NCBI RefSeq assembly: GCF_000758665.1
Contig: NZ_CP009285.1
Coordinates: 5,952,001-6,016,000, forward strand
Length of the DNA: 64,000 nt
Direction of reading: 5' to 3'
DNA from: Paenibacillus borealis
Lineage (GTDB): Bacteria > Bacillota > Bacilli > Paenibacillales > Paenibacillaceae
Shown here: piece after piece, positions 33,171 through 51,126 of the stretch
Position numbering within the stretch: the first letter of the stretch is position 1
How the letters are laid out: each line of letters starts with the position of its first letter
Position numbers and translations under genes: made by a program
Notes under the pieces: generated by a model
Databases searched by the model: none
What the model was told of the DNA's origin: nothing
What the model saw: the letters and a program-made list of their open reading frames with translations, nothing else

Positions 33171-34088
33171 TCAAAATGAATATTGAGCCGCTACCCGGGT
33201 GAGTGCGGCGAACTTCTCTTCAGATAATTCTTCCTGTCCAAGCTCGTAGCTTCTGCCCAGCAAACCATACTTCACCGAGCCGTATCTGTGGTATTTCAAC
33301 AGCTCATGGCGGATGCCGCCCAGACTGCTGACGAATTCAGCGATCTCTGCAATGGCCTCCGCCGAGTCATTGAACCCGGGAATTACCGGGGTGCGGACAA
33401 TAATATTGCTCCGCTCGAACGACCGGCTCAGGCGTTCCAGGTTCTCCTTGATCAGGCGCGGGGATACCCCTGTAAACTGCAAATGAGCCTGCTCATTCAG
33501 CGACTTCAAGTCGTAATGGATCATACTCAGGCTGGGCAGCAATCTGCTGAAATGATTCCAGGGGGAGTATCCGCAGGTTTCAATCGCGGTGTGAATCCGC
33601 CGCCGCTTCGCCCCGGCCAGCAGCGCTTCAGCGAATCCGATCTGGGCAGTAGCTTCGCCCCCGCTCAGGGTTAGACCGCCTCCCGATCTTTGATAGAACA
33701 GGCTGTCCTCTCCGGCAATCTTCAGCACTTCTTCCACCGTCATAAGCCTGCCGTATACATCAAGGGATCTGGACGGGCAGACGGCCGCGCAATCCAGGCA
33801 ACCCTGAACACATAGCCCGCGGTCAATCTTCACCTTTCCGCTGACAGGATCATCTGCGATGGCTCCCCGTCCGCAGGCCGCAAGACAGAATCCGCAAGCT
33901 TCCGTCCCTATGCATTTGCCTGCATCATAGTACATTTCCCTGGCGGACAGCCAGGATTCAGGATTGCTGCACCATCTGCAGCGCAGAGGACATCCCTTCA
34001 TGAAGACCACTGTGCGGATGCCCGGCCCGTCATGCAGCGAATATCTTTGAATATTGAAGATGTTGCCTTGAAGCGGCTGATGTTCCAT
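33171..34088 (-). CDS. Glycyl radical enzyme activase (radical SAM)
   Basis: A 305-residue radical SAM protein that cleaves S-adenosylmethionine to place the glycyl radical on its partner enzyme. The cluster motif CX3CX2C is at Cys33, Cys37 and Cys40 (GCPLRCRWCSNPES). Two ferredoxin-like Cys clusters follow at about residues 58-110, the arrangement of activases for eliminating glycyl radical enzymes such as CutD and IslB rather than the short PflA type. Its ATG overlaps the stop codon of the partner gene by one base, so the two are translationally coupled. It needs anaerobic conditions. Confidence 0.94.
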   Translation of the reverse strand: MEHQPLQGNIFNIQRYSLHDGPGIRTVVFMKGCPLRCRWCSNPESWLSAREMYYDAGKCIGTEACGFCLAACGRGAIADDPVSGKVKIDRGLCVQGCLDCAAVCPSRSLDVYGRLMTVEEVLKIAGEDSLFYQRSGGGLTLSGGEATAQIGFAEALLAGAKRRRIHTAIETCGYSPWNHFSRLLPSLSMIHYDLKSLNEQAHLQFTGVSPRLIKENLERLSRSFERSNIIVRTPVIPGFNDSAEAIAEIAEFVSSLGGIRHELLKYHRYGSVKYGLLGRSYELGQEELSEEKFAALTRVAAQYSF

Positions 34089-36565
34089 TATATTACCGTA
34101 TGCCCGGTTCTTCTGATCAGATCGTTCTGCAAATCTGCGGAAAGATCCGTGAAATAAGCGCTGTAGCCGGCAATCCGCACAAGCAGGTTGCGGTATTTAT
34201 CCGGGTCCTGCTGCGCATCCAGCAGCGTCTGCCTGTTGATGATGTTGAACTGCAGATGCCAGAGGCGCAAATCGCTCCAGGTCCGGATAAAGGAAACGAG
34301 CTTCAGGGTCCCTTCTTCCCCTTCGATGACGGAAGGCGTAAGTTTAATGTTGAGCAATCTCGCGGCTCTTTCCCGGTAGTTGTAATTCTTGGAGTAGTAG
34401 TTGGAGAGCAGGACGGCCGTCGGCCCGTTAATATCCGCGCCATGTGAGGCGGAGGAGCCGTCTGCGAGCGGGGTATAGGCTTTTCTCCCATTGGGAGTCG
34501 CTGAGACGACCTTGCCAAAAGGAACATGAGAAGTGAAGGGAACGTAACGGAGATCCAGGTTCACACCCAGCTGCTTCGAATAAGCGCGGGTAAATTTCAA
34601 TGCTTCCTCATCCAGTTCCTTGGCGATAGAATCGGCATAATCCTCGTTGTTACCGTAACTTGGCGCATGTGCCAGCAGTTGACGGATAGCTTCGCGGCCT
34701 TCGAAATCACGGTCAAGCGCTTCAATTAATTGAGCCATCGAAATCCGTTTATCCTCGAAAACCACCTTTTTGATGGCGGCCAGAGAGTCGATTACCGTGC
34801 CGTAACCGATAAATTCGAAGTAACCCAGATCAATTCCGCCCTCGATATGAGGCTCATGGATATCCTTATGATTCTGCAGGCACAGCCTGTGCATGGAGGA
34901 GCTTAGCGGAGCGGCAAAATGCCGGCTGCGCAGCCGGATAATCGCGTGCTGCTGGATGAAGGCATGCTTGAGGAAATATTTCTGCTGGGCCTTATAAGCA
35001 TCAAAGAACTGCTCCCATGTACCGAAGCTCAGCGGATCACCGGTTTCAAGGCCCAGGGTCTCTCCGGGGTAGCGCAGCATCTGCCCGTTCCGCAGCGTCA
35101 TCTCGACGGCAGCGGCAAAATTGATATAGGCACAGGGGCTGGTGTACGTATCGCGGTTCGGCATCCGGCATTCCGCACAACCCGATACGGCATAGTCATA
35201 GGCCTCCTCGAACGTTGCCCCTTTGGCCAGCAGCAGGGGTACAACTTCCTCATCATTGATCAGCTTCGGAAATCCCGAGCCTTCTTTGATGGTCTCCGCG
35301 ACCTCATACAGGTAACGCTCAGGCGCTCTCGTGTGAATCCGGGCCGCCAGATCGGGATAGTTCAGCGGGAATTCCCGCTTGGACTGCAGCATCAGATAGG
35401 TCAGCTCGTTGGTCGCGTCCAGCCCCCCAGGGGTCTGTCCGCCAATTGTCACCGCTTCCCAGTGGGCATATCCTTCGTTAAAGGCACCGCCGGCCGGTGA
35501 AATGTAGAGGTCCAGAAACTGGGCCATCGCATTCCATACACATTCCAGCAGCTCGATCACTTCCTGATCTGTAATGAGGCCAAGCGCAGTATCTTTCTCG
35601 TAGAACGGGTAGAGGTACTGGTCCATTCTTCCGTTCGAAATCACAGTGCCCGTCTTCTGCTCCAATCTGGAGAACATCTGGACGAACCATTGGGATTGCA
35701 CAGCTTCATGGAAGCTGCGGGGCGGATGTTCCGGCACATGGGCACTGATTCCGGCAATCTTCCGCAGCTCGGCCTGCCGCACGGGATTCGTCTCTTCATC
35801 CGCCAGCTTGGCAGCCAATATGGAATGACGGTTAGCCCACAGTACAATAGCATCGGACACATTCACTATAGCCTGCAGGAAGGGCAGCTTCTCCATGTTA
35901 TCGACCGGGCTGTAAGGATCAAGCCGGCTGATCTCCCGCAGCGCTTCTTCTTTGATCCCCTTGTAGCCGATGCGGAGCACCTTCTCATAATCATGCACCC
36001 ACTGGATGGATGAACGGAACGATGCGGTTTCGTTGACAATGAATCTGGATTTCAGCGGGTCTGCGGGATCATACGTCACCTTCAGCGTATCCGCAGGCAA
36101 TGCACTGGCCAGCGCCTCGTGGAAGGTTTTCCCTTTCCAGTACGGTGATATTTCATTCACAATAATGGCTGCATCCGCTTCACCCAGATCGAACGGTGAC
36201 TGGCCGCGGCTGGGCAGCTCCCTGATCACCGTGTCCAGATAATCACCATCCAGCTCCGGATACAGGATTCCGTATCTTCCCGGGGCCCCGCCTCTTCCCG
36301 CAATCAGCTGATCCCCGTCGATATAGACGGTAATATGCCGGGCAATATGCAGCAGCGCCTTGGACCATCTCAGAATCAGGGCTTCACCCTCCGACTGCTT
36401 GAACGATTCGGTAAAAAGCTGCGCACGTTCCACATCAATTGTGGGACGCTGATTCTGAAATGAATGGAGAATACGGACTGCCCGTTCATGCCCCGGGAAG
36501 GTCCGTTCCCCGGGTGGAAGAAGCAGTCTTTGTTCCTGCACCGATAAAACCGATTGAACCGTCAT
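34088..36565 (-). CDS. Glycyl radical enzyme, PFL-like superfamily, substrate unknown
   Basis: An 825-residue glycyl radical enzyme. The radical Gly800 lies in VRIAGYSAYF near the C-terminus. The thiyl site is Cys463 in VSGCAECRMPNRD, with Glu465 two residues later. This GCxE pattern belongs to the eliminase branch (diol and glycerol dehydratases, choline and isethionate lyases), not to pyruvate formate-lyase, which has a Cys-Cys pair; the extra Cys466 and the lack of the usual Val-Glu-Pro are unusual. It is coupled to its activase and lies between a GntR regulator and, divergently, a taurine/sulfonate cluster. A C-S lyase role, for example on isethionate, is possible but unproven. It has its own promoter and palindrome. 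Confidence 0.9.
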   Translation of the reverse strand: MTVQSVLSVQEQRLLLPPGERTFPGHERAVRILHSFQNQRPTIDVERAQLFTESFKQSEGEALILRWSKALLHIARHITVYIDGDQLIAGRGGAPGRYGILYPELDGDYLDTVIRELPSRGQSPFDLGEADAAIIVNEISPYWKGKTFHEALASALPADTLKVTYDPADPLKSRFIVNETASFRSSIQWVHDYEKVLRIGYKGIKEEALREISRLDPYSPVDNMEKLPFLQAIVNVSDAIVLWANRHSILAAKLADEETNPVRQAELRKIAGISAHVPEHPPRSFHEAVQSQWFVQMFSRLEQKTGTVISNGRMDQYLYPFYEKDTALGLITDQEVIELLECVWNAMAQFLDLYISPAGGAFNEGYAHWEAVTIGGQTPGGLDATNELTYLMLQSKREFPLNYPDLAARIHTRAPERYLYEVAETIKEGSGFPKLINDEEVVPLLLAKGATFEEAYDYAVSGCAECRMPNRDTYTSPCAYINFAAAVEMTLRNGQMLRYPGETLGLETGDPLSFGTWEQFFDAYKAQQKYFLKHAFIQQHAIIRLRSRHFAAPLSSSMHRLCLQNHKDIHEPHIEGGIDLGYFEFIGYGTVIDSLAAIKKVVFEDKRISMAQLIEALDRDFEGREAIRQLLAHAPSYGNNEDYADSIAKELDEEALKFTRAYSKQLGVNLDLRYVPFTSHVPFGKVVSATPNGRKAYTPLADGSSASHGADINGPTAVLLSNYYSKNYNYRERAARLLNIKLTPSVIEGEEGTLKLVSFIRTWSDLRLWHLQFNIINRQTLLDAQQDPDKYRNLLVRIAGYSAYFTDLSADLQNDLIRRTGHTVI

Positions 36566-36581
36566 TAGATCTCTCCCAACT

Positions 36582-36607
36582 AAATCCTAACTAAACCAGT
36601 AGGATTT
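36582..36607. promoter_or_regulatory. Palindrome in the 5' leader of the glycyl radical enzyme gene
   Basis: AAATCCTA (36582-36589) and TAGGATTT (36600-36607) form a perfect 8-bp inverted repeat just downstream of the expected transcription start. The position suits a repressor operator. It differs in sequence from the GntR palindromes at 37488-37516, so it may bind another regulator or form an RNA hairpin. Confidence 0.55.
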
Positions 36608-36624
36608 GTTAAATTATGTGACCC

Positions 36625-36654
36625 ATCGTAAAGCGGTTAGGTTTAGTTTGTCAA
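36625..36654 (-). promoter_or_regulatory. SigA promoter of the glycyl radical enzyme gene
   Basis: On the minus strand TTGACA (36654-36649) and TACGAT (36630-36625) are 18 bases apart. The -35 is embedded in AACCGGTTGACA, nearly identical to AACCTGTTGACA at the divergent aminotransferase promoter, suggesting a shared regulator. Confidence 0.65.
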
Positions 36655-36690: not shown

Positions 36691-37416
36691 TCACAGTTTT
36701 CTTCTGCGGGTCAGATTGATCCGGAAAGCATAATTATCGGCGCGGTAGATGCTTTTCTCATATTCCAGGGGATTGCCGTCATGATCCAGCACCAGGCGCT
36801 TGGATAGCAGGGCGCAGCTTGGTTCGGCAGTCATGCCCAGCAGCTTCTTCTCTTCCGCCGCCGGAATAATCGCGCCAATCGTCTGTTGTGCTTCCCACAG
36901 ATTCAGCCCCAGCTCCGTTTCCAGCACATCATAGGTCGACACATTGCTTAAATCCAGCAGCGCCAGCTTCTCGCCGATTTCCAGCGGGTAATATTGGGTC
37001 TCCAGCACAACAGGTGTGTCGTTTGCCAGTCGCAGCCGGATCGTCTCGTACAGCCGGGATACCCCGAATATTTTGGCGGCATCCTGCGGCGCCTCCACAA
37101 TCCCCTGCTTTAGCACCTTGATATCGGGAGTAAGCCCGCGCTCGCCGATGATATCGAAGAACGTGCTTAAATTGCCCAGCCACTCCTCTATCGGCCTTAC
37201 AGCCACAAAAGTACCGAGCCCTTGCCGGGATTCCAGCATTCCGTCATCGATCAGGGTGCGGATCGCGCGGCGGACGGTCGCCCGGCTGACGGAATATTTG
37301 TCCATCAGCTCATGCTCCGCCGGGATTTTCTCAGTGTAGGTGCCTTTAAATATATCGTTTCGAAGTAAATTCCTTACCTGTAAATGCAGCGGGATTGAAT
37401 TGCTTCTGTCGAGCAC
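36691..37416 (-). CDS. GntR-family regulator with UTRA ligand domain
   Basis: A 241-residue repressor-type regulator. The winged helix lies in residues 1-70 (AEHELMDKYSVSRATVRRAI) and the UTRA effector domain in about 85-235, ending with YRADNYAFRINLTRRRKL. The GTG at 37416 (LDRSNSIPLHLQV) is preferred to the GTG 12 bases upstream because AAAGGGTG then has a normal spacing and the N-terminus matches the family. It lies 125 bases upstream of the glycyl radical enzyme gene on the same strand and is divergent from the aminotransferase/sulfonate operon. Palindromes cover its own promoter and the divergent one, so it probably represses both and is released by a pathway intermediate. Confidence 0.92.
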   Translation of the reverse strand: MLDRSNSIPLHLQVRNLLRNDIFKGTYTEKIPAEHELMDKYSVSRATVRRAIRTLIDDGMLESRQGLGTFVAVRPIEEWLGNLSTFFDIIGERGLTPDIKVLKQGIVEAPQDAAKIFGVSRLYETIRLRLANDTPVVLETQYYPLEIGEKLALLDLSNVSTYDVLETELGLNLWEAQQTIGAIIPAAEEKKLLGMTAEPSCALLSKRLVLDHDGNPLEYEKSIYRADNYAFRINLTRRRKL

Positions 37417-37473
37417 TATATGTAACACCCTTTCTCGTCTATTATAATTCCAAGTAAGTAGATGCGATTATTT

Positions 37474-37502
37474 ATTATATCATCATTAGGTTGTCCGTAC
37501 AA
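37474..37502 (-). promoter_or_regulatory. SigA promoter of the GntR gene
   Basis: On the minus strand TTGTAC (37502-37497) and TATAAT (37479-37474) are 17 bases apart, about 58 bases before the GTG start. The -35 box is inside the palindrome AGGTTGT-CCGT-ACAACCT. Confidence 0.7.
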
Positions 37503-37516
37503 CCTGTTGACAGGTT
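37488..37516. promoter_or_regulatory. Twin overlapping palindromes, likely GntR operators
   Basis: AGGTTGT-CCGT-ACAACCT (37488-37505) and AACCTG-TTGA-CAGGTT (37501-37516) are two perfect inverted repeats overlapping by five bases. The first covers the -35 of the GntR promoter and contains TTGTNNNNACAA, which resembles HutC/UTRA-type operators; the second covers the -35 of the divergent aminotransferase promoter. Confidence 0.75.
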
Positions 37517-37536: not shown

Positions 37537-37574
37537 ATGTATCAACCAATCTTATACAGCTGATCAGATCACTG

Positions 37575-37630
37575 AAGGCTAAGCTGCGTCCTCCTTATTT
37601 GGGAGACGTGACTTAGCCTTTATTATTTTA
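37575..37630 (+). terminator. Terminator-like hairpin in the leader of the aminotransferase gene
   Basis: AAGGCTAAG (37575-37583) pairs with CTTAGCCTT (37612-37620), with further pairing inside (CGTC/GACG), followed by the T-rich TATTATTTTATTT. It lies between the operon promoter and the ribosome site of the first gene, with no gene upstream to end, so it may act as a partial terminator or attenuator. No known riboswitch fold was recognised in the short leader. Confidence 0.6.
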
Positions 37631-37645: not shown

Positions 37646-39031
37646 ATGAAACAGACGTTGACCGGCGTACCAAGCGCGGCTGAACTGGCAGAACTCCACC
37701 GGGAGCATCTCTGGCTGCATCTTACCAACCACAAGCTTTATGAGACGCAGGAGCCGCCGATTATGGCTGAGGGCACAGGCTATATGCTGAAGGATGTGCA
37801 GGGAAAGGAGTTTGTCGACGGCCTGTCCGGCGGAGTGTGGGTCGTCAATGTGGGACACGGCAGAGCAAGCATAGCAGATGCTGTGAGCCGGCAAATGAAG
37901 CTGTTGCCTTATTATGCCGGCTCGATGGCCACCCCGCCTTACATTATGCTGGCCGCGAAGCTCGCCTCCCTGCTGCCCTCGCTGCCGAAGGTCTACCTTT
38001 CGAACAGCGGCTCTGAAGCGAATGAGAAAGCATTCAAGATGGTCCGGCAATATTTCGCCGCAAAGTCCCCGGGCAAGAAGAAATACAAGATTATATACCG
38101 GGACAGGGATTATCACGGCACTACTCTGGCGGCGCTGGCCAGCAGCGGACAACAGGAACGAAGAGCGGATTTCGGTCCGCTGCCGGAAGGCTTCGCGGAA
38201 ATCCCACACGCTCTGTGCTACCGCTGTCCGTTCGGCAAAAGCTATCCCGGCTGCAATATCGATTGCGCCCGGGCACTGGAACAAGTGATTCAGCAGGAAG
38301 GTGAAGACTCGGTTGCCGCCGTGATTCTGGAGCCGGTTACCGCCGGGGGCGGCATCATCCCTCCGGTTCCGGAATATTATCCGGTGCTGCAGGAAATCTG
38401 CCGCAGGTATGGCGTACTGCTGATCCTGGATGAGGTCGTTACCGGCTTCGGCCGGACAGGAGCCCTGTTCGGGCATCAGCATTACGACGTACAGCCCGAT
38501 ATCATCACCTTGGCCAAAGGACTGGCAAGCGGCTACATGCCGATCTCGGCTACGGTTGCACGCAAAGAGATATTCAACCAGTTTATGGCCGGGCCGGAAG
38601 AGCCGAACGGATTTTTCCGGGATATCAGCACATTCGGAGGCTGCGCAGGCAGCTCAGTGGCTGCCCTTGAGAACATCCGGATTATTGAAGAGGAGAGATT
38701 GACGGAGAATAGCGCGCTCATGGGCGCCTACCTGATGGAGCGGCTGAAGGAGCTGGAGGCATTCCCCATTGTCGGCAACGTCCGGGGGCAAGGTCTGCTG
38801 GCCGGTGTTGAACTGGTGGAGGATAAACGATCCAAGATACCGCTTCAGGAGAGCCGGCTGGCGCAGATCGTTGCCAGTGCCCGGGAGGATGGTGTAATTA
38901 TCGGCAGAATGACGCGCAGTGTGCCGGGTTATAACAACGTGCTGTATATGGCACCTCCGCTCATCATCGATAAGTATGGAATCGACAGGATCATCGGTGC
39001 TCTGCGCAGTGCACTACACAAACAGTTGTAG
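37646..39031 (+). CDS. Class III aminotransferase, probable taurine or omega-amine transaminase
   Basis: A 461-residue PLP-dependent omega-transaminase. The PLP lysine is in ITLAKGLASGYMPIS (about residue 291), with the preceding LILDEVVTGFGRTG (Asp that binds the pyridine nitrogen). A four-Cys insertion CYRCPFGKSYPGCNIDC lies at about residues 191-207, typical of the Firmicutes branch. It is the first gene of a cluster with TauCAB, so transfer of the amino group of taurine or a related aminosulfonate to pyruvate or 2-oxoglutarate, giving sulfoacetaldehyde, is the leading hypothesis; beta-alanine, GABA or other amines remain possible. No Xsc (sulfoacetaldehyde acetyltransferase) gene is in the window. 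Confidence 0.85.
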   Translation: MKQTLTGVPSAAELAELHREHLWLHLTNHKLYETQEPPIMAEGTGYMLKDVQGKEFVDGLSGGVWVVNVGHGRASIADAVSRQMKLLPYYAGSMATPPYIMLAAKLASLLPSLPKVYLSNSGSEANEKAFKMVRQYFAAKSPGKKKYKIIYRDRDYHGTTLAALASSGQQERRADFGPLPEGFAEIPHALCYRCPFGKSYPGCNIDCARALEQVIQQEGEDSVAAVILEPVTAGGGIIPPVPEYYPVLQEICRRYGVLLILDEVVTGFGRTGALFGHQHYDVQPDIITLAKGLASGYMPISATVARKEIFNQFMAGPEEPNGFFRDISTFGGCAGSSVAALENIRIIEEERLTENSALMGAYLMERLKELEAFPIVGNVRGQGLLAGVELVEDKRSKIPLQESRLAQIVASAREDGVIIGRMTRSVPGYNNVLYMAPPLIIDKYGIDRIIGALRSALHKQL

Positions 39032-39086: not shown

Positions 39087-39893
39087 GTGGCTAAGCTTGC
39101 AGGCTTGAGGCATTGGATTCACAAAAAAGCAACCATTGAGCGGATGTTAACAACAGGCACCATTCTGGTTCTGCTTCTATTATGGTTCGCGGTCACGGAG
39201 CTAAAGCTCCTGTCAGCGATTCTGGTCCCTTCTCCCGGCAAAGTGTTTGCCAGCTTTATTCAAATTCTGCAGGAAGGCTACAAAGACAACAGTCTGCTGA
39301 CACATCTCAGAGACAGCATGATGCGCTTATTAAGCTCCTTCGTGCTCGTCATCCTCACCGCCGTCCCCCTCGGTCTGCTGAGCGGCTATAACTCCAAAAT
39401 ACGCGCCATCATGTATCCGCTCGTTGAATTTTACCGCCCGCTCCCGCCGCTCGCGTACTATACCCTGCTTGTGCTGTGGATGGGAATTGAAGATTCGTCC
39501 AAGATTGCACTGCTGTATCTGGCCGGTTTTGCCCCCGTCTTCATTGCCTGTGAATCGGGAGTCCGTAAACTGAAGCAGGATTATATTGACGGGGCCTATA
39601 CCCTCGGGGCAGACAGCCGGCAAATTTTCTTTCATGTTGTTTTCCCCGCCTGCCTGCCGGATATATTCATCGGACTGAGAACAGCAGTCGGCGTCTCCTA
39701 TACGACGCTTGTCGCAGCCGAAATGGTCGCCGCAGTAACCGGCATTGGATGGATGGTGCTGGACGCCAGCAAATTTCTGAGAAGCGACATTATTTTCGTG
39801 GGCATTATCATTATGGGGATAACCGGGATGTTGATTGATGCCGTACTGCGGGCCGTTGAACGTAGAGTCGTACCGTGGAAAGGCAAAGAATAG
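39087..39893 (+). CDS. tauC: Taurine-type ABC transporter permease
   Basis: A 268-residue membrane permease of the nitrate/sulfonate/taurine class, with about six segments and the EAA-type loop DGAYTLGADSRQIFFHVVFP at about residues 170-190. GTG start with AAAGGAGG 6 bases upstream. The next genes are a clear TauA-like binding protein and an ATPase, so the trio forms a complete importer. The symbol follows from the company of TauA rather than from TauC-specific features. Confidence 0.85.
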   Translation: MAKLAGLRHWIHKKATIERMLTTGTILVLLLLWFAVTELKLLSAILVPSPGKVFASFIQILQEGYKDNSLLTHLRDSMMRLLSSFVLVILTAVPLGLLSGYNSKIRAIMYPLVEFYRPLPPLAYYTLLVLWMGIEDSSKIALLYLAGFAPVFIACESGVRKLKQDYIDGAYTLGADSRQIFFHVVFPACLPDIFIGLRTAVGVSYTTLVAAEMVAAVTGIGWMVLDASKFLRSDIIFVGIIIMGITGMLIDAVLRAVERRVVPWKGKE

Positions 39894-39911: not shown

Positions 39912-40943
39912 TTGAACAAGAAACTTAGACTTATGCTGACAGGCGGCCTGGCTCTTGTACTATCAGTGCAGCTTGCAGCATGCGGAAACAGCAAGGAAGA
40001 CGGGGGTACAGCCAAACCGGAATCCGTTACGATCGGATACCAGGACATTCCCAATGATGAAATTGTCGCCAAAGCCAAAGGCTGGTATGAAGCTGAGCTC
40101 GGTGTGCCGGTGAACTTCAAGAAATTCGATTCCGGCCGTGATGTGAACACCGCCTTCGCCTCGAAGAGCATCGATATCGGGCTGATGGGCAGTACACCGG
40201 CTTCCGTAGGCATCGCCACCGGGCTGGAATATGAGGTGTTCTGGATCCACGATGTCATTGGCGCTGCCGAAGCGCTAGCGGTCAAGAATAGCTCAGGTGT
40301 GAATTCGGTCAAGGAGCTGGCCGGCAAAAAGGTGGCGGTTCCCTTCAGCTCCACGGCACACTACAGCCTGCTGAATGCGCTGGAGCTTGAGGGTGTCAAT
40401 CTGGCGGATGTGCAGATTCTGGATATGCAGCCGAATGATATTTTTGCCGCCTGGCAAAGAGGTGATATTGACGCCGCTTATGTATGGAATCCGGTGCTGG
40501 GCGAACTGCTGAAGGACGGCAAAGTTCTTACCGACAGCGGTAAATTAGCGGAACAAGGCATTGTGACTGCCGATGTCGGAGTGGTCAGCAAAGCGTTCGC
40601 CGGCAAATACCCTGAACTTGTGGCCAAATATATCAAGGTCCAGTCAAAGGCTCACGACCTCTATACCAGCAATCCCGATGAAGCTGGCGATGCGCTCGCT
40701 AAAGGCCTTAATATCAGCAAATCCGAAGCGCTGAAACAAACTGGCGATCTCATCTGGCTGTCCGCCAGTGAACAACTATCTTCCAAATACTTCGGCCCCA
40801 GTGACAGCAAAGGGGATTTGGCCAGCATTCTGAAGGCTACCGCAGACTTTCTGGTGGAGCAAAAGGCACTGGAAAAGGCACCTGATCTGGAGGCCTTTGA
40901 ACAGGGGATCAACTCCGCATATATTGAACGTTCACTGAAATAA
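39912..40943 (+). CDS. tauA: Taurine ABC transporter substrate-binding lipoprotein
   Basis: A 343-residue binding lipoprotein (signal peptide, lipobox QLAAC at about residues 21-25). The mature part matches the TauA family closely: TIGYQDIPNDEIVAKAKGWY, FKKFDSGRDVNTAFASKSID, KVAVPFSSTAHYSLLNAL and AAWQRGDIDAAYVWNPVLG, including segments that line the sulfonate pocket in TauA. Start is TTG with AGGGGAGG upstream. It delivers taurine or a close aminosulfonate to the TauC/TauB complex. Located 18 bases after the permease gene. Confidence 0.92.
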   Translation: MNKKLRLMLTGGLALVLSVQLAACGNSKEDGGTAKPESVTIGYQDIPNDEIVAKAKGWYEAELGVPVNFKKFDSGRDVNTAFASKSIDIGLMGSTPASVGIATGLEYEVFWIHDVIGAAEALAVKNSSGVNSVKELAGKKVAVPFSSTAHYSLLNALELEGVNLADVQILDMQPNDIFAAWQRGDIDAAYVWNPVLGELLKDGKVLTDSGKLAEQGIVTADVGVVSKAFAGKYPELVAKYIKVQSKAHDLYTSNPDEAGDALAKGLNISKSEALKQTGDLIWLSASEQLSSKYFGPSDSKGDLASILKATADFLVEQKALEKAPDLEAFEQGINSAYIERSLK

Positions 40944-43856: not shown

Positions 43857-44939
43857 ATGAACTTATTTAAAAAAAGCACAACCTGGATGCTATTAACCGC
43901 CCTGACATTTCTAATCGCAGGCTGCGGCAATAATGGGGCAACAGCTGCCGACACTGCTGCGAATTCAACCGCCGCCCCCGCCGCAGCAGCAAGTGCAGAT
44001 CCCTCACCTGCTGTTAAGGATTACGGCGGACTGACCCTGACGATCGGCATTCAGCCCGGACCGGGCTCCTACGCGCTTGCGCGGAGCAAGGGATGGTTCG
44101 AGGAAGAATTCGACAAGGTAGGCGTTAAGGTGGAATGGGCTGAATTCCAGAGCGGTCCGCCGATGACAGAGGCCATTGCCGCCGGCCGTCTGGATTTCGC
44201 CGGCCTTGGCAACCTGCCGGTGGTCACAGCTCAGGCTGCGGATATCGGATTCACTGAAATCGCCAATATTATCGACGGCAAGAACAATGTAGCCATTATC
44301 GTACCTAAGGATAGCCCGATTACCACAATAGAGCAGCTCAAGGGCAAGAAGGTAGCTGTCGCCAAAGGCAGCAACGCGTTCAACTTCCTCTACCGCGGTC
44401 TGGACAAGGCCGGACTTAAGCCTTCTGACCTGGAGATCATCCAGCTGCAGCCCAATGAGGCGCAGCCCGCTTTTGAAACCGGAGGTGTCGATGCCTGGGC
44501 AACCTGGGACCCTTACATTACAACGAATCTGCTCACCGGCAAAGCACAGGTTCTGACCGATGGTGAAGCACTGGGTGTGCTGTCCCCTTCCTTCCTGATT
44601 GCCCGTACGAAGCTTGCCGAAGAGCATCCAGAACTAATCACCACGTTCTTGAAAGTATATGAGCAGGCCCGTGTCTGGGAGGAACAGCATCTGGAGGATG
44701 CGATCAAGACGTATGTCGAGCAATTCTCGGTAGATGCAGGTATCATACAGGCGCTACGCGACCGCGTCACACCAATCAATGTGCCGATCAGTGACGAGGT
44801 CATTGCCCAGCAGCAGGAAACTGCAGATTTCCAGCTGGAGCAGAAAACGATCCGCAAACAAATCGATGTATCCAAGGTGGTCGATAACCAGTTTATTGAG
44901 CAGGCCCTTAAGGATGCTGCCGCCGAACCGAAATGGTAA
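43857..44939 (+). CDS. ssuA: Aliphatic sulfonate-binding lipoprotein
   Basis: A 360-residue substrate-binding lipoprotein with lipobox LIAGC at about residues 18-22 and an Ala/Ser/Pro-rich linker. The mature part carries the SsuA pattern: LTIGIQPGPGSYALARSKGW, FAGLGNLPVVTAQAADI, KKVAVAKGSNAFNFLYRGL and DAWATWDPYITTN. AAGGAGG precedes the ATG. It binds alkanesulfonates outside the cell for the SsuB/SsuC importer. Confidence 0.92.
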   Translation: MNLFKKSTTWMLLTALTFLIAGCGNNGATAADTAANSTAAPAAAASADPSPAVKDYGGLTLTIGIQPGPGSYALARSKGWFEEEFDKVGVKVEWAEFQSGPPMTEAIAAGRLDFAGLGNLPVVTAQAADIGFTEIANIIDGKNNVAIIVPKDSPITTIEQLKGKKVAVAKGSNAFNFLYRGLDKAGLKPSDLEIIQLQPNEAQPAFETGGVDAWATWDPYITTNLLTGKAQVLTDGEALGVLSPSFLIARTKLAEEHPELITTFLKVYEQARVWEEQHLEDAIKTYVEQFSVDAGIIQALRDRVTPINVPISDEVIAQQQETADFQLEQKTIRKQIDVSKVVDNQFIEQALKDAAAEPKW

Positions 44940-44949: not shown

Positions 44950-45795
44950 ATGCAGAGCGTCCAATTGGAAGAAAGGGCGGCCCCCCCTGCTGCCGCAAGC
45001 AAGAGTAGGTCAAGTAATAGACCAATCAGGCGGAAGACTACGCTCAAAGGACTAATACTGCCAGTACTGACGCTTATAGTCTGGGAAATCTTCGGAACGG
45101 CAGGACAGATCAATCCCACCGTATTGCCTACTCCTCACGTGATTGCCTTGGAATTCTATAATCTTGCCAGGTCGGGGGAGCTGCTCTTCCACCTGAAGAT
45201 ATCTTTATGGCGTTCGCTGCTCGGCTTCCTGCTGGGAGGCTCCGTTGGTCTTGCCCTTGGTCTGTGGTCAGGCTTCTCACGGCTTGCGGAGAAACAGCTT
45301 GACCCTTCCATCCAGATGCTGCGGACCGTTCCCCATCTGGCCATCACCCCGCTCTTTATTCTCTGGTTCGGTTTCGGGGAATGGTCCAAGATCCTGCTCA
45401 TTGCGCTGGGTGCTTTCTTTCCGGTATACGTGAACACTTTCCTGGGCATCCGGTCGGTGGATGAGAAGCTGTTCGAGGTAGCGAAGGTTCTTCAATATAA
45501 CCGCCGCAGCCTGATTACGAAGCTGATTGTGCCAGCCTCCCTGCCGAACATTCTGCTCGGGATCCGCTTATCGCTGGGGGCAGCATGGCTTGGGCTGGTG
45601 GTGGCTGAAATGATGGGCTCCAGTGAAGGTGTCGGCTTTCTGATTATGGATGCGCGGTATTTCTCCATTACCTCGCTAGTCTTTGTAGGCATCCTGATCT
45701 TCGCCATCGTCGGGAAATTGACCGATTCCCTGGTCAAGCTGCTGGAGAAGCGGCTGCTCCGCTGGCGTGACAGCTATCTGGGGGAGAATCTATGA
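44950..45795 (+). CDS. ssuC: Aliphatic sulfonate ABC permease, first copy
   Basis: A 281-residue permease of the SsuC group with a basic, Ser/Ala-rich cytoplasmic N-terminus. Family stretches are LRTVPHLAITPLFILWFGFG, GAFFPVYVNTFLGIRSVDEK and the EAA-type loop FEVAKVLQYNRRSLITKLIVP. The ATG at 44950 follows a weak AAGGTGA; an earlier in-frame ATG inside ssuA would add 72 unrelated residues. It ends in ATGA, overlapping the next permease by 4 bases. Confidence 0.9.
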   Translation: MQSVQLEERAAPPAAASKSRSSNRPIRRKTTLKGLILPVLTLIVWEIFGTAGQINPTVLPTPHVIALEFYNLARSGELLFHLKISLWRSLLGFLLGGSVGLALGLWSGFSRLAEKQLDPSIQMLRTVPHLAITPLFILWFGFGEWSKILLIALGAFFPVYVNTFLGIRSVDEKLFEVAKVLQYNRRSLITKLIVPASLPNILLGIRLSLGAAWLGLVVAEMMGSSEGVGFLIMDARYFSITSLVFVGILIFAIVGKLTDSLVKLLEKRLLRWRDSYLGENL

Positions 45796-46595
45796 ATAAG
45801 ATTAGCTTGAAACAGAAGAAATCAACACTATCCGGCAGACTGCCGGATTCCCTGCAGGCCTGGATCTTCCCGCTGGCCCTTCTGCTGCTGTGGCAGATTG
45901 CGGGAGCAACCGGGCTGCTGTCCCCGTCGCTGTTGCCAACTCCGTTGGAGATCGGGAAGCAGTTCATCCGGCTGGCCGGGAACGGAAAGCTGCTGATGCA
46001 CCTGGAAGCCAGTGTAATCCGGGCTGCTGCCGGCTTTGCACTCGGCGGCTCCCTCGCCCTGATTATCGGGCTGGCCGCCGGACTATCGAGGCTGGTGGAA
46101 GAACTGCTGGACCCTTCCCTGCAGATGATGCGTACAGTTCCGCTATTATCTGTCATTCCGCTGTTCATTCTCTGGTTCGGGGTAGGACAGTTGTCACAGG
46201 TGCTTCTGATCGCACTGGGCGCCTTTTTCCCCTTATATGTCAATACCTTCGCAGGTGTCCGTGGTGTCGACCGCAAGCTGTACGAGGTGGCGCAGGTCCT
46301 TCAGTATTCCCGGATGCAGCGGATCTTCCGGCTCATTATTCCTGCGGCACTGCCCAACATCCTGCTGGGCATCCGCCTGTCGCTGGGTATAGCCTGGCTC
46401 TGCCTGGTGGTAGCCGAGCTGATGGGAGCCAGCTCCGGCATCGGCTACATGATTGCCGAGGCGCGCCAGTATTCGCAGACCGCAGCTGTATTTGTGGGCA
46501 TAGGGATCTTTGCAGTAGTGGGCAAGCTGTCCGATTCCCTTGTGCGGTTACTGGAATCAAGGCTGCTGCACTGGAGAGAAGCTTATAAAGGCTGA
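45792..46595 (+). CDS. ssuC: Aliphatic sulfonate ABC permease, second copy
   Basis: A 267-residue SsuC-type permease clearly paralogous to the gene just upstream (compare LLIALGAFFPLYVNTFAGVR and LPNILLGIRLSLGIAWLCLV with the same stretches there). The two are translationally coupled by the ATGA overlap. Standard Ssu systems have one permease acting as a homodimer, so this pair may form a heterodimer or two alternative channels. Confidence 0.9.
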   Translation: MNKISLKQKKSTLSGRLPDSLQAWIFPLALLLLWQIAGATGLLSPSLLPTPLEIGKQFIRLAGNGKLLMHLEASVIRAAAGFALGGSLALIIGLAAGLSRLVEELLDPSLQMMRTVPLLSVIPLFILWFGVGQLSQVLLIALGAFFPLYVNTFAGVRGVDRKLYEVAQVLQYSRMQRIFRLIIPAALPNILLGIRLSLGIAWLCLVVAELMGASSGIGYMIAEARQYSQTAAVFVGIGIFAVVGKLSDSLVRLLESRLLHWREAYKG

Positions 46596-46656: not shown

Positions 46657-48285
46657 ATGGCATATCCGGATCAAATCTATATTAACGGCATAGTGCTGAC
46701 TTTTGACCCTACAGGAACAACTGCTGAAGCAGTAGCCTTGCAAGGAGAACGTATTGCTGCAGTCGGCAGCACAGCGCAGCTGCTGGAGCTGGCAGGACCG
46801 GAGACGGCAGTGACCGATCTTCAGGGAAAGACGGTTTTGCCCGGCTTTTATGAGGCGCATGGCCATTTTCCGTTAAGCGGAATCCTGGAGGTGCAGTCGG
46901 CTCCGCTGTGGAGTCCGCCGCGCGGATCAATCACCAGCATCTCCGGGCTGCTCGCGGTCTTGAAGGAGAAAGCAGCGGACATTCCGGCCGGTGGCTGGGT
47001 CACGGGATTTGGATATGATCCCTCCAAGCTTGCGGAGAAGCGGCATCCCAGCCGGTATGAACTGGATCAGGCCTTTCCGGAGCATCCGGTGTGGCTCTCC
47101 CATAACTCGGCACACATGGGGGTGGCGAACAGCAAGGCGCTGGCTATAGCAGGAATTACGAAGGACTCCCCCGCCCCGGTAATTGGCATCATCCAGCGTG
47201 AACCTGATGGGGAGCCTACAGGATTAATCCAGGAGAATGGCGCTTTAATTGAAGCTTATATCCCCCCTCTATCCGCAGCGCAGCATGCTGAAGGGATAAG
47301 GCTTGCCAATGCCGAGTACGTGTCGCAAGGAATTACTTCTGCCATCATCGCTGTAGGTGTGGATCCGGAACCGCTGGTCAATGCCCACAGCCGCGGGCTG
47401 CTGGATCTCCGGCTGATCAATATCCCTTTATATCATCCCGAACAAGCGCCGCTGCAGGAAGTCTACGACTATGGCCCGGTCAAATCGCAGGGGGCCAAGC
47501 TGTTTCAGGACGGCTCCATCCAGGGGTATACCGGCTGGCTCTCCAACCCTTACCACCAGCCGTTCTCTGAAGACGATCCGTTGTACAGAGGATTTCCTAT
47601 GCTGGAGCGGGAGGAGCTGGCACAGGCTGTGTTCGCTGTTCATTCCACCGGCCGCCAGGTCGTTATTCATGCCAACGGTGACGCTGCCATTGATGATGTG
47701 CTGTACGCCATCGGTGAAGCCCAGCGGCAGCTGCCGCGTCCGGACGCCCGCCACCGGATTGAGCATGCCCAGTCTGTACGTGAAGATCAACTGGACCGCA
47801 TTAAGGAATTAGGCATTACGCCTTCCTTCTTTAACGATCATGTCTATTACTTCGGTGATGACCACCGTGATATTTATCTGGGTGAGGACCGGGCACGCCG
47901 GATCAGTCCGCTCCAATCGGCGGTGGTCCGGGGCATCCGTTTCTCGCTGCATAACGATACGCCGATCACGCCGCCCTCTCCCCTGCATCTGGTATCTGTC
48001 GCCGTCAACCGGCTGACCGCCAGCGGACGGGAGCTCGGTCCCGAATACCGGATTACGCCGTATCATGCACTGCGGGCCGTCACAATCGATGCCGCCTGGC
48101 AGGCATTTGAGGAGGATGATAAAGGCTCGATTGAGCCCGGCAAGCTAGCCGATCTGGTCATTCTCGCAGACAATCCGCTGACCGCTGATCCGCTCGGTCT
48201 GCATAAGATTCCCGTTCTCCAGACGATTATTGGCGGCCGTAAGGTATACGTGCATGCAGAGGCAACCTTAGCTTCACAGCAATAA
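46657..48285 (+). CDS. Metal-dependent amidohydrolase, YtcJ-like
   Basis: A 542-residue amidohydrolase of the amidohydrolase_3 (YtcJ/LAF) group. The metal-binding HxH is in FYEAHGHFPLSG (about residues 67-78), a second-shell His is in RHRIEHAQSV (about 370) and the metal-binding Asp in SLHNDTPITPPSP (about 435). Start with AAAGGCGGG upstream, 61 bases after ssuC. Its place suggests that it hydrolyses an amide or formamide, perhaps an N-acyl aminosulfonate, but members of the group act on many substrates. The gap holds TTTGTACAACAATTT, a word that recurs at 51392. Confidence 0.82.
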   Translation: MAYPDQIYINGIVLTFDPTGTTAEAVALQGERIAAVGSTAQLLELAGPETAVTDLQGKTVLPGFYEAHGHFPLSGILEVQSAPLWSPPRGSITSISGLLAVLKEKAADIPAGGWVTGFGYDPSKLAEKRHPSRYELDQAFPEHPVWLSHNSAHMGVANSKALAIAGITKDSPAPVIGIIQREPDGEPTGLIQENGALIEAYIPPLSAAQHAEGIRLANAEYVSQGITSAIIAVGVDPEPLVNAHSRGLLDLRLINIPLYHPEQAPLQEVYDYGPVKSQGAKLFQDGSIQGYTGWLSNPYHQPFSEDDPLYRGFPMLEREELAQAVFAVHSTGRQVVIHANGDAAIDDVLYAIGEAQRQLPRPDARHRIEHAQSVREDQLDRIKELGITPSFFNDHVYYFGDDHRDIYLGEDRARRISPLQSAVVRGIRFSLHNDTPITPPSPLHLVSVAVNRLTASGRELGPEYRITPYHALRAVTIDAAWQAFEEDDKGSIEPGKLADLVILADNPLTADPLGLHKIPVLQTIIGGRKVYVHAEATLASQQ

Positions 48286-48334
48286 TTGTGCAATAAACGC
48301 TGGAGATATCCATAAAGAAAGGCGGTGTTCACCT

Positions 48335-49663
48335 ATGGTACAATATCAGTTTCCTGTTAGCGGCACAGCAAAGGCACAGATTCTGGAACAACTGCAGGCC
48401 TTGCGCGGGGCGGATGCCAATTGGCGGGACGGCCGCACCTGGAGCCTGGTTTATTACGGGGGTGAGGAAATCTCTGATTTAACCAGACAAGCCTACCAGC
48501 TATTCTCGCAAGAGAATGGGCTCAACCCCGGAGCTTTTCCCTCTCTGCGCCAAATGGAAACAGAGGTGGTATCCATGACGGCGGATTTGCTGGGCGGGGG
48601 AAGCGGAACGGCCGGAAATATGACCTCAGGCGGCACGGAAAGTATTCTGATGGCCGTCAAAACCGCAAGGGACTACGCCCGGGCTGTCCGTCCGGAGATT
48701 AGTCAGCCGGAGATAGTCCTGCCTGTTACGGCTCATCCGGCATTCTCCAAAGCAGCAGCTTATTTCGATATCAAACCTGTATACGTTCCGTTAACGGAGG
48801 AATACCGGGCAGATGCCGCTGTTGCCCGTCAGCTGATTAACGGAAATACAATTCTGCTGGTCGGCTCCGCGCCTGCCTATCCGCATGGTGTGATGGACCC
48901 GATTGAAGAGCTGGCCGGAATCGCCGCCCAGCATCAAATTCCTTTTCATGTGGATGCTTGTCTCGGAGGATTTATACTGCCATTCCTGAAGGACCTCGGC
49001 GTGCCAATTCCCGATTTCGACTTCCGCATACCGGGCGTAACCTCGATGTCCGCGGATCTCCATAAATACGGTTATGCCTCTAAGGGAGCTTCTGTCGTCC
49101 TGTACCGCGAGGACGAATACCGCCAGCACCAGTTCTACGTCCGCAGCGACTGGCCGGGCGGCTTGTTCGCTTCCCCTACGATGGCCGGCACCCGGCCGGG
49201 CGGGGCTATCGCCGCCGCATGGGCAGTACTGAAGCTGCTCGGCCGGGACGGCTACAGCCGTCTCGCCGACACAACGCTGCAAATCACCCGCAGGCTCAAA
49301 GAGGCCCTGATTGCCATTCCAGGTCTGCACATTCTGGGCGATCCCCTAATGAGCGTCTTTGCCGCCGGTTCAGAAGTGCTCAACCTGTACGCGGTTGCAG
49401 ATGAGCTGGAGAGCAAGGGCTGGCATATGGACCGCCAGCATCTGCCGCCAAGTCTGCATTTCATGGTGACGCAGGCGCACCGGGAGAGCGTAGATGTATT
49501 CATTCATGATCTGCAGCAAGCGATTGCTGCGGTAGCAAGTCATCCGGAGGCTTATGCGGAGGGCACCACAGCGATGTACGGCATGGTGGGCAGCCTGCCG
49601 GACTCAAGCCTGGCTCACGGATTCATGCGCGATTATCTCAGCTCCATGACCCGTAGAAACTAA
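48335..49663 (+). CDS. PLP-dependent decarboxylase / sphingosine-phosphate-lyase-like protein
   Basis: A 442-residue fold-type I PLP enzyme of the group II decarboxylase family, in the branch of sphingosine-1-phosphate lyase. Visible are GNMTSGGTESILMAVKTARD (PLP phosphate-binding), FHVDACLGGF (Asp to the pyridine nitrogen) and the PLP lysine in SADLHKYGYASKGAS at about residue 240. It could decarboxylate an amino acid (for example cysteate or cysteine sulfinate, which would link to taurine) or cleave a C-C bond; the substrate is not evident. It is 50 bases after the amidohydrolase gene, preceded by GGCGG. Confidence 0.82.
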   Translation: MVQYQFPVSGTAKAQILEQLQALRGADANWRDGRTWSLVYYGGEEISDLTRQAYQLFSQENGLNPGAFPSLRQMETEVVSMTADLLGGGSGTAGNMTSGGTESILMAVKTARDYARAVRPEISQPEIVLPVTAHPAFSKAAAYFDIKPVYVPLTEEYRADAAVARQLINGNTILLVGSAPAYPHGVMDPIEELAGIAAQHQIPFHVDACLGGFILPFLKDLGVPIPDFDFRIPGVTSMSADLHKYGYASKGASVVLYREDEYRQHQFYVRSDWPGGLFASPTMAGTRPGGAIAAAWAVLKLLGRDGYSRLADTTLQITRRLKEALIAIPGLHILGDPLMSVFAAGSEVLNLYAVADELESKGWHMDRQHLPPSLHFMVTQAHRESVDVFIHDLQQAIAAVASHPEAYAEGTTAMYGMVGSLPDSSLAHGFMRDYLSSMTRRN

Positions 49664-49692
49664 CATTTCATTAGAGGGAGTGTCGGTGAACG

Positions 49693-51126
49693 ATGCCTAA
49701 GTTATCGGACGGACAAGAACCGCCTTCTCCGTACGCTGTCCATTCTTCGGAGCAGGGGCAGAACGGCCTCGCCCGGGCCGGGAAGCTGCGCTGGAATACT
49801 AAGCTGTTGTACGGTTCGGGTGAAACCGTAAATGTGATTACCATCACGGTAATCGGCATGTACTATCTGTTCTTCCTCACCGATTACGTCGGTTTGTCAC
49901 CCACCCTTGCCGGAGGGATCTTCATGATCGGCCGGATCTGGGATGCGTTTATCGATCCGGTTATGGGGATTGTAACCGACCGGACGCGCACGAAATGGGG
50001 ACGGAGAAGACCGTTTTTGCTGCTTGCTGCGCTTCCAATCGGCCTGCTCTTTTTCCTCATGTGGAGTTACCCGGGAGCGGGAACCGACACTCTAAATGCC
50101 ATTTATTTCACCGCTGCCTATATGCTGTTCATGACCACATTAACGCTCTATTACGTGCCTTACCTTAGTCTGGTCGCCGAACTGACGGATGATTATAACG
50201 AGAGGACCAGCGTTAACAATTACCGGATCGTCATTCAATTATTAATGGGGCTGGTCGCTGCCGTCATCCCCAAAATGATTGCTGACAGCTATACAGATGC
50301 CTTCCTGGGCTACAGGATGATGGGGCTGGCCGTCGGGCTGTTCATCGTCCTCATTCCGCTGCTGCTGTTCTTCCGGGTACAAGAAAGCGAACGCAATTTC
50401 CTTCAAAGCAAGTCGCCTTCTCCCCGCTTCAGCTCCGAAATCCGGCTTGCGCTGGCCAGCCAGCCCTTCCGCCGCCTGCTGCTGCTCTATGTCGGCTGCT
50501 ACGCGGCGTCCAATGTCATCGAAGGATTCGTAATTTATTACATGAAATATTGGCTGGGCCGTGAAGAGGAGATGTCCTACCTTCTGGTGACGGTTATTCT
50601 GGCCGGAGTCTTTACGCTTCCTCTCTGGACGAAACTCTCTCAGGCGGCAGGCAAGAAGACAACAATTATCTGCGGCCTGCTCCTCTGGGCGGTCAGCCAG
50701 CTGGGTTGGATGCTGCTCACTCCCGGTTCTCCGTCCTATCTGGTATATCTTATTGGTGCAATTGTAGGTGCCGGCTATGGTGTTGCCCATGTCATTCCCT
50801 GGTCCATGCTTCCTGACGTACTCGATGCAGATGAGCTACGGACAGGCTTAAGGCGAGAGGGACTGTATTCCGGAATCATGACATTCTTCATGAAGACATC
50901 TAATTCGCTGGCCATTTTTCTGATTGGAATCCTGCTGGAGGCTGCCGGTTATATGCCCAATCAAATTCAGGACGGGCCTGCGCAAATGACCATCCGAACT
51001 ACGATGACGTTCGCGCCGGAGCTCTTTATTGTTGCAGGTTTAATCGCTGCATTCCTCTACCCGCTGGGGAAGGACGATTATGAGAGAAACCGGGTAAGGC
51101 TGTATGAACAATCTAAGACTAGCTGA
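49693..51126 (+). CDS. GPH-type major facilitator transporter
   Basis: A 477-residue secondary transporter of the glycoside-pentoside-hexuronide:cation symporter branch, with 12 membrane segments. The N-terminal YLFFLTDYVGLSPTLAGGIF and IWDAFIDPVMGIVTDRTRTK motifs are typical. It follows the decarboxylase gene by 29 bases and is the last gene of the 13-kb operon, so it probably imports or exports a substrate or product of this pathway rather than a common sugar. No terminator is seen directly after it; the next hairpin is at 51534. Confidence 0.9.
   Translation: MPKLSDGQEPPSPYAVHSSEQGQNGLARAGKLRWNTKLLYGSGETVNVITITVIGMYYLFFLTDYVGLSPTLAGGIFMIGRIWDAFIDPVMGIVTDRTRTKWGRRRPFLLLAALPIGLLFFLMWSYPGAGTDTLNAIYFTAAYMLFMTTLTLYYVPYLSLVAELTDDYNERTSVNNYRIVIQLLMGLVAAVIPKMIADSYTDAFLGYRMMGLAVGLFIVLIPLLLFFRVQESERNFLQSKSPSPRFSSEIRLALASQPFRRLLLLYVGCYAASNVIEGFVIYYMKYWLGREEEMSYLLVTVILAGVFTLPLWTKLSQAAGKKTTIICGLLLWAVSQLGWMLLTPGSPSYLVYLIGAIVGAGYGVAHVIPWSMLPDVLDADELRTGLRREGLYSGIMTFFMKTSNSLAIFLIGILLEAAGYMPNQIQDGPAQMTIRTTMTFAPELFIVAGLIAAFLYPLGKDDYERNRVRLYEQSKTS

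Follow-up and report, generated by a model that had tools for sequence, protein, structure and literature searches.

A predicted isethionate sulfite-lyase of the glycyl radical family encoded opposite an SsuD-containing sulfonate operon in Paenibacillus borealis

What does a glycyl radical enzyme (GRE) act upon when its gene stands back to back with an organosulfonate operon in a facultative Gram-positive bacterium? The question is raised by a stretch of 64,000 nucleotides from Paenibacillus borealis (assembly GCF_000758665.1, contig NZ_CP009285.1, positions 5,952,001 to 6,016,000 of the forward strand), hereafter the window, which is part of an 8.16 Mb genome on one contig. A preliminary description, made from the letters of the window, had left the substrate of the GRE open and proposed that an aerobic arm (SsuD desulfonation) and an anaerobic arm (radical C–S cleavage) are combined under one regulator. 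Here, we find that SsuD and an IslA-type enzyme are both recognisable and adjacent in the window. The presence of IslA in Bacilli is well supported, and its setting beside SsuD is likely one of sulfur assimilation. The cluster is probably a locus that assimilates sulfur from C2 sulfonates and functions with or without oxygen.

The GRE contains the PFL-like (PF02901) and Gly_radical (PF01228) domains, with catalytic residues C463 and E465 in a CxE motif and the radical glycine at G800. It is 68.7% identical to IseG (5ymr), 63.6% identical to Bilophila wadsworthia IslA, and 59.9% identical to 6lon, which we take to be HpsG, the 2,3-dihydroxypropane-1-sulfonate (DHPS) sulfolyase. The 5ymr structure is that of IseG with isethionate bound, and the structural passages of PMC6453916 describe Arg187, Gln191, and Arg676 as contacts to the sulfonate and Phe680, Ile190, and Thr310 as contacts to the remainder of the molecule. 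Passages of PMC8473560 also test or discuss Trp374, Cys468, Glu470, Val680, and Gly805 of B. wadsworthia IslA. In our alignment, all six published IseG contacts and these five further IslA residues are kept in the window GRE, the pocket of which reads R184, I187, Q188, T307, W369, C463, E465, R673, V675, and F677. The sulfonate-binding Arg-Gln-Arg set (R184, Q188, and R673) is complete, and HpsG-side sequences have these residues too. At the other three contacts (I187, T307, and F677), sequences on the window side carry Ile in 186 of 201 cases, Thr in 201 of 201, and Phe in 201 of 201, whereas the 120 relatives listed of 3404 matches to a search with 6lon carry Leu (120/120), Ala (112/120), and Ile (106/120).

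The phylogeny agrees with the pocket. A tree of 61 sequences, chosen from 322 that were aligned and built by a quick search with SH-aLRT values and no bootstrap, splits 22 HpsG-side sequences from 39 others with a support of 100; the window GRE and both IslA references are among the 39. In this tree, the window's clade is nested among IslA lineages (21 sequences, support 100), and the two references do not form a clade of their own. In the first tree (92 sequences, rooted near the single HpsG sequence), the window's mostly Bacillota clade is sister to the clade holding the two references. Under either tree, the window GRE should, by its sequence, be an isethionate sulfite-lyase. Passages of PMC6386719 use an identity of at least 62% as the threshold for IslA, which the window GRE exceeds; because 6lon itself reaches 61.3% to B. 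wadsworthia IslA and 63.9% to 5ymr, this criterion alone is weak. Taken together, the comparisons argue strongly for assignment to IslA. The enzyme groups with IslA/IseG rather than with a non-sulfonate clade, and its substrate class, left open in the preliminary description, can be narrowed. HpsG is rejected as an identity by the tree placement and by the three pocket positions, which are not Leu, Ala, and Ile. CutC (524 bits, cut-off 1050), HypD (510, cut-off 1100), HpfG (422, cut-off 1000), and PFL (PRK09983; 449, cut-off 1109) were also tried and lie far under their cut-offs.

The activase, GRE, and gntR genes all lie on the minus strand and diverge from a plus-strand unit of 12 tightly packed sulfonate genes. 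Intergenic gaps of -4 to 79 bp make a single transcription unit plausible for the latter. Every gene named in the preliminary description is borne out at its position by the list of open reading frames, and profile searches bear out the families:

33171-34088, minus strand: GRE activase, an IslB/IseH-like radical SAM protein (TIGR02494, 327.4 bits, cut-off 174.35)
34088-36565, minus strand: predicted IslA-type isethionate sulfite-lyase, 825 residues (tree, pocket, and domains as above)
36691-37428, minus strand: GntR-family regulator with a UTRA domain (PF00392 and PF07702 above cut-off)
37646-39031, plus strand: class III aminotransferase, putative taurine aminotransferase (PF00202; PRK07678 at 484 bits, just below 488)
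39087-39893, plus strand: TauC-type permease (TauC is the top model, 236 bits, under its cut-off of 342)
39912-40943, plus strand: TauA-type substrate-binding protein (TIGR01728, 174.7 bits, cut-off 163.5; TauA, 261.5 bits, below 304.25)
40963-41793, plus strand: TauB-type ATPase (TauB is the top model, 254.9 bits, under its cut-off of 357)
41873-43030, plus strand: SsuD, FMNH2-dependent alkanesulfonate monooxygenase (TIGR03565, 616.6 bits, above its cut-off of 518.2)
43045-43842, plus strand: sulfonate-type importer ATPase in the SsuB position (top model SaoA, 245.2 bits, under its cut-off of 360)
43857-44939, plus strand: SsuA-type substrate-binding protein (TIGR01728, 270.5 bits, cut-off 163.5)
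44950-45795, plus strand: SsuC-type permease 1 (SsuC, 249.2 bits, under its cut-off of 347)
45792-46595, plus strand: SsuC-type permease 2 (SsuC, 236.8 bits, under its cut-off of 347)
46657-48285, plus strand: Amidohydro_3 (YtcJ-like) amidohydrolase, putative N-acyl-sulfonate hydrolase (PF07969, 333 bits)
48335-49663, plus strand: pyridoxal phosphate (PLP) enzyme of the sphingosine-1-phosphate (S1P) lyase family (3mad StSPL, 431.9 bits, versus MfnA, 143.7)
49693-51126, plus strand: GPH-family symporter (TIGR00792, 280.3 bits, cut-off 231.35)

The best equivalog model for the activase, NF048010, scores 391.3 bits, under its cut-off of 430. The open reading frame called for SsuC-type permease 1 begins at 44734 and overlaps ssuA; by inspection, the ATG at 44950 is the most likely start. 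Family scans of the cluster proteins found no TauD among the cluster genes.

This gene content suggests the following scheme, in which we infer the substrates, the direction of flow, the regulation, and the taurine step. The TauCAB and SsuABC-type importers would take up isethionate, taurine, and related sulfonates. Import of isethionate by Rhodobacter SsuCAB is described in passages of PMC11423573. In air, SsuD would oxygenate the C–S bond and convert isethionate to glycolaldehyde and sulfite; action of SsuD on isethionate with oxygen is reported in parts of PMC6453916 and PMC11423573. Without air, the activase would generate the glycyl radical of the IslA-type enzyme at G800, and a thiyl radical on C463 would initiate a 1,2-elimination that yields acetaldehyde and sulfite from isethionate. 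The sulfite would be reduced by CysJI, and the acetaldehyde could pass to AdhE. Sulfoacetaldehyde most likely arises from taurine by action of the class III aminotransferase and would be reduced to isethionate by a reductase encoded outside the cluster. The most likely ligand of the GntR protein is a sulfonate or an intermediate, and the protein most likely regulates both its own gene and the operon that begins with the aminotransferase.

The rest of the genome was searched for the enzymes that this scheme calls upon. CysI scores 888 bits (cut-off 757), and CysJ lies beside it (a fragment in L110, where loci are labeled L and genomes G; its top model is CysJ). AdhE (1396 bits, cut-off 951) adjoins PflB (1230 bits, cut-off 994). 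The presence of PflB, AdhE, and CysJI agrees with the facultative setting proposed earlier. The three matches to sulfite/nitrite-reductase domains above cut-off are CysI, NirB, and a CobJ-type fusion, so no DsrAB pair is seen among them, although the DsrAB models themselves were not run. Xsc, already noted as missing from the window, is also missing from the whole genome at the model cut-off (best score 305.8 bits versus 676.4); weaker relatives match the Xsc model in 14 of 14 control genomes, none above the cut-off. The entry of taurine, part of the original proposal, is not supported or is left open by the aminotransferase: among the matches listed, it lies above no curated cut-off and so is not a named taurine aminotransferase. 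It falls in PRK07678, the Toa-like enzyme of locus L018 falls in PRK06062, and that of L040 is an omega-aminotransferase.

Related GRE loci in other bacteria bear on the substrate. We compared 80 loci from GTDB genomes, the best 80 of 157 encoding a relative; 37 of the 80 span at least 20 kb, and absences in these counts may be due to short contigs. A class III aminotransferase is encoded in 18 of the 80 (three of them Paenibacillaceae, L001-L003) and a Tau/Ssu-type binding protein in 22 (four Paenibacillaceae, L001-L004). SsuD occurs in four: two Paenibacillus loci, Sodalis L048, and Brenneria L051. By their genera, these four hosts are facultative anaerobes. TauF and Toa occur together in 10 of the 80, all Bacillota. 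L018 and L025 share the order IslAB, regulator-like gene, TauF, Toa, TauC, TauA, TauB; in L029, IslAB through Toa is kept, and TauC lies past an inserted Ssu/amidohydrolase group. The reductase of L018 matches 6jko, identified as BkTauF in passages of PMC6616044, with 437 bits. Attachment of this TauF/Toa taurine module to the same GRE clade supports isethionate as the GRE substrate. These loci in Bacillota relatives also lend support to the idea that taurine could feed into the GRE, and class III aminotransferases of three subfamilies lie near Tau-type transporters at GRE loci in three lineages (the window, L018, and L040).

Conservation was examined in 100 genomes of the genus and in 394 of the family, the former included in the latter; the family count of the GRE comes from scoring the top two candidates of each genome. 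At E <= 1e-200, the GRE is encoded in 4 of the 100 genus genomes and 5 of the 394 family genomes. In all five of the latter, activase, GRE, and gntR face the aminotransferase, SsuA, two SsuC genes, and the amidohydrolase, so the divergent arrangement is more than chance. The aminotransferase (E <= 1e-150) and amidohydrolase (E <= 1e-120) each occur in 4 of the 100 genus genomes, and these are the four that encode the GRE. TauCAB lies directly 3' of the aminotransferase in four of the five clusters, and the GPH gene is present in three (the window, L101, and L117). The S1P-lyase relative (E <= 1e-60) occurs in three of the four GRE-bearing genus genomes and in 4 of 394 family genomes, always inside the cluster; the cluster of Paenibacillus sp. 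S150 (L100) is without it. The GntR regulator is 94-97% identical across the four relatives that carry the cluster. In one of them (G080), a gene of the short-chain dehydrogenase/reductase (SDR) family lies about 0.36 kb downstream of the activase (L099, 3879-4601); it scores under every curated cut-off and might be considered as a sulfoacetaldehyde reductase.

Three candidate regulatory elements lie between the coding regions:

36625-36654, minus strand: GRE promoter, sigma-A-like TTGACA-18-TACGAT, within the gap between gntR and the GRE gene
37488-37505, strand not assigned: inverted repeat AGGTTGTCCGTACAACCT, candidate GntR operator, in the gap between the aminotransferase gene and gntR
37573-37622, plus strand: leader hairpin with a U-rich tail, candidate attenuator, between the operator and the ribosome-binding site of the aminotransferase gene

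The candidate operator AGGTTGTCCGTACAACCT overlaps the likely gntR promoter and precedes the -35 box of the aminotransferase gene by a short distance. No other exact copy occurs in the 8.16 Mb genome; one further site differs by one mismatch, and the backward control gave none. Its arms, GGTTGT and ACAACC, are intact in four of the five loci; the Fontibacillus locus differs by one base, and G080 also lacks the outer A/T pair. The only other site in the window, at 51098, is at chance level and was set aside. Both hexamers of the GRE promoter are present in all five aligned loci. The leader hairpin folds with a z-score of -2.69, and 95.0% of its cells are paired across the five loci versus 33-50% when the structure is slid; its covariation is not above that of shuffled alignments, 198 of 500 of which reached the score. 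No Rfam family matches the window at its gathering score, and the single sub-threshold match at E <= 5 lies elsewhere, so the hairpin was not assigned to a known riboswitch. The claim of a single regulator holds in part: a candidate operator stands between the aminotransferase gene and gntR, but the GRE gene has its own conserved promoter. Control of both arms by GntR is plausible only if gntR transcripts read through the 125 bp into the GRE gene or if GntR binds a different site there.

Several observations weigh against an oxygen-independent and an oxygen-dependent arm working as one system on isethionate and taurine. No copy of the operator is found at the GRE promoter with up to two mismatches allowed. 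Family scans of the cluster proteins show no SsuE-like flavin reductase among the cluster genes. The Fontibacillus cluster (L117) is without SsuD and SsuB, and that of P. sinensis (L101) is without TauCAB, so the SsuD and IslA arms are not obligatory partners; their physical linkage in the window stands, but it does not extend to every cluster. Likewise, the divergent pairing, kept in all five close genomes, fails just outside this group: two Paenibacillaceae metagenome-assembled genomes (MAGs; L004 and L005) encode a GRE that is 79-80% identical and lack the layout, and L004 has GRE, activase, SsuA, SsuC, and SsuB in one direction. The window's Bacillota branch carries Cys, Pro, and Cys in place of Ala/Ile, Gly, and Gly at IslA positions 471, 482, and 483, and the passages of the cited papers report no purified enzyme from this branch. 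The cluster itself has no sulfoacetaldehyde reductase gene, as noted before for the window, and the genome's eight iron-type alcohol dehydrogenases above cut-off do not supply a recognisable one. None of the eight, scanned against NCBIfam, is SarD (best score 260.5 of 700), and none is TauF (no more than 33% identical to the TauF proteins of L018, L025, and L029); the SDR-type IsfD was not searched. Because neither SarD nor TauF was found, the taurine arm is left with no known reductase. It is possible that a broad aldehyde reductase serves this arm; L088 is closest to PRK15138 (311.7 of 645 bits), presumably YqhD.

How do other readings of the locus compare with a C2-sulfonate assimilation locus? 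The strongest challenge concerns the taurine step. The aminotransferase may not act on taurine, with isethionate imported as such and the plus-strand operon serving mainly other N-substituted or longer sulfonates. The position of the enzyme just under the PRK07678 cut-off, apart from the L018 Toa-like enzyme and the L040 omega-aminotransferase, and the lack of a dedicated reductase in the cluster both favor this reading. However, the location of TauCAB directly downstream of the aminotransferase in four clusters and the three aminotransferase subfamilies found near Tau-type transporters at GRE loci favor taurine, and we regard the alternative as possible but not probable. It is unlikely that the two divergent units serve unrelated functions, with a sulfonate scavenging operon by chance adjoining an islA unit that was gained for a different use. 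Distinct promoters, a candidate operator on one side only, and the Fontibacillus and P. sinensis clusters that lack SsuD or TauCAB would fit such independence. Yet the aminotransferase, amidohydrolase, and GRE are jointly present in 4 and jointly absent in 96 of the 100 genus genomes at the thresholds used, the layout persists in every GRE-bearing genome of the family sample, and sulfonate-type binding proteins and class III aminotransferases recur at 22 and 18 of the 80 GRE loci.

A dissimilatory role, in which anaerobic respiration would use the sulfite, or fermentation the acetaldehyde, that the GRE releases, would match the sulfite-respiring bacteria in which characterised IslA works according to passages of PMC6386719, and AdhE is encoded next to PflB. 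We nevertheless judge it improbable, given that SsuD, an assimilation enzyme, is encoded in the same locus and that no DsrAB pair was seen among the reductase-domain matches, within the limit stated above. Least credible of all is the reading suggested by the database name, with the GRE acting as a DHPS sulfolyase or dehydratase. The enzyme does score 1494.7 bits (cut-off 1000) with the NCBIfam model NF048011, "(2S)-3-sulfopropanediol dehydratase." However, the Desulfovibrio IslA-side GREs of L060 and L073 score 1563 and 1547 bits, 6lon scores 1508, and a rumen GRE scores 1499; since IslA-side and HpsG-side enzymes score alike, the name does not discriminate, and the tree and the three pocket positions point to IslA. 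In addition, 17 proteins from the cluster region were scanned, and the matches listed include none to the sulfoquinovose pathway, a result that covers this region and not the remainder of the window. IslA-side proteins such as P0015 and P0025 bear the same sulfopropanediol dehydratase name. A name that spans the IslA and HpsG sides can mislead pathway predictions.

As an assimilation locus for C2 sulfonates, the cluster resembles several known systems in part. With IslA/IslB (IseG/IseH) of Bilophila and Desulfovibrio, it shares the clade, the Cys, Glu, and Gly residues, the six isethionate contacts, and an adjacent activase. It differs in its Gram-positive host, which encodes CysJI and shows no DsrAB pair, in the Cys-Pro-Cys substitutions of the Bacillota branch, and in its ATP-binding cassette importers; the sulfite respirers have tripartite ATP-independent periplasmic transporter and microcompartment genes, as passages of PMC6453916 describe. 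The anaerobic taurine modules (Tpa-SarD-IslAB, and the TauCAB-Toa-TauF arrangement of rumen loci L018, L025, and L029) have the GRE, activase, class III aminotransferase, and Tau importer in common with the window, which in contrast has an aminotransferase of another subfamily and an added SsuD; SarD and TauF are absent from its cluster and from the genome's eight alcohol dehydrogenases above cut-off. SsuD above its cut-off and SsuABC/TauABC-type importers are shared with the aerobic Ssu/Tau systems, whereas the window cluster lacks TauD and SsuE and is placed opposite a radical lyase unit. The IsrBHDK system of Rhodobacter capsulatus, in the passages of PMC11423573, likewise releases sulfite from isethionate for assimilation independently of O2, with import by SsuCAB and an aerobic route alongside. 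The Rhodobacter enzyme is nitrogenase-like and unrelated to GREs, and its aerobic partner is not identified in those passages, which draw a comparison with HemF/HemN for isethionate. The cluster would hold a physically linked pair of O2-dependent and O2-independent enzymes for one desulfonation step, comparable to HemF/HemN, and could let one bacterium draw sulfur from the same small sulfonate with or without air. In the passages of the papers cited, the characterised isethionate lyases serve sulfite-respiring anaerobes; here, the setting is a Gram-positive bacterium with PflB, AdhE, and an assimilatory sulfite reductase. A literature search of titles and abstract openings, which left most subscription papers outside its reach, returned none that deals with a pairing of IslA and SsuD, an isethionate lyase from Paenibacillus, or the cleavage of capnine. 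The locus allows clean single-gene tests in culturable species.

Two accessory enzymes are encoded near the distal end of the operon. The preliminary description's "PLP decarboxylase/lyase" is present as a PLP enzyme but belongs to the S1P-lyase family; S1P lyases score three times higher than MfnA, and identification as MfnA or glutamate decarboxylase was rejected. Like StSPL, whose residue roles, including those at the substrate-phosphate site, are given in passages of PMC6148460, it keeps the equivalents of the Schiff-base Lys311, His201, Tyr105, Asn126, and Lys317. It differs at the substrate-phosphate site, where His129 is replaced by Asn and Ala103 by Leu, as in most of its 114 nearest relatives outside the Paenibacillus group (Asn in 74, Ser in 39, and Gly in 1 at the His129 position; Leu in 113 of 114 at the Ala103 position). 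No sulfonate-specific signature was found: two alignment columns pass the test of a residue invariant in the seven Paenibacillus-group sequences and different in 90% of the remaining ones, and neither is in the pocket list. In a sample of the class, the relative occurs in 2 of 398 genomes, the window's own and G725 (53% identity). None of the other window genes lies within 19.9 kb of the G725 gene, so it is the Paenibacillaceae cluster alone that ties this enzyme to sulfonates.

Taurine would be a product of two conceivable reactions, retro-aldol cleavage of capnine and decarboxylation of cysteate. We speculate that the S1P-lyase relative might free taurine from a sulfonolipid base. In a fuller version of this idea, the plus-strand operon would channel larger lipids into taurine: the amidohydrolase would deacylate N-acyl sulfonolipids or N-acyltaurines, the S1P-lyase relative would cleave capnine, the sulfonate analogue of sphingosine phosphate, by retro-aldol reaction to taurine and a fatty aldehyde, and the taurine would pass through the aminotransferase to an oxygen-switched SsuD/IslA pair. 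We hold this version to be a long shot; if true, it would be a breakdown route for bacterial sulfonolipids in which sulfur is recovered with and without air. A relative of the amidohydrolase (39% identity) is encoded at 8876-10501 of L029, from a rumen Ruminococcus MAG, within the Ssu-type transporter group beside the GRE-TauF-Toa locus. No other independent hint emerged that members of this family act on an N-acyl sulfonate close to a GRE.

The neighbors of the cluster include several further genes of note. A hybrid histidine kinase gene (29986-33174, minus strand) comes after the activase gene; by eye, it has a LytS-like second kinase part at its C-terminus. Its open reading frame call overlaps the activase gene by 4 bp, a later start is likely, and no counterpart is seen in L001-L003. 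Downstream of the cluster, a gene on the minus strand (51614-53755) encodes a surface protein that combines SLH domains with toroid repeats like those of squalene cyclases, an 81% identical relative of which adjoins the cluster in L098 (G080). On either side of a two-component system plus one other gene lie genes for two short proteins (54411-54965, minus strand, and 58553-59113, plus strand) that begin alike (..GFVGYDYKEV.. and ..GQFVGYEYKDV..) and have no match in Pfam.

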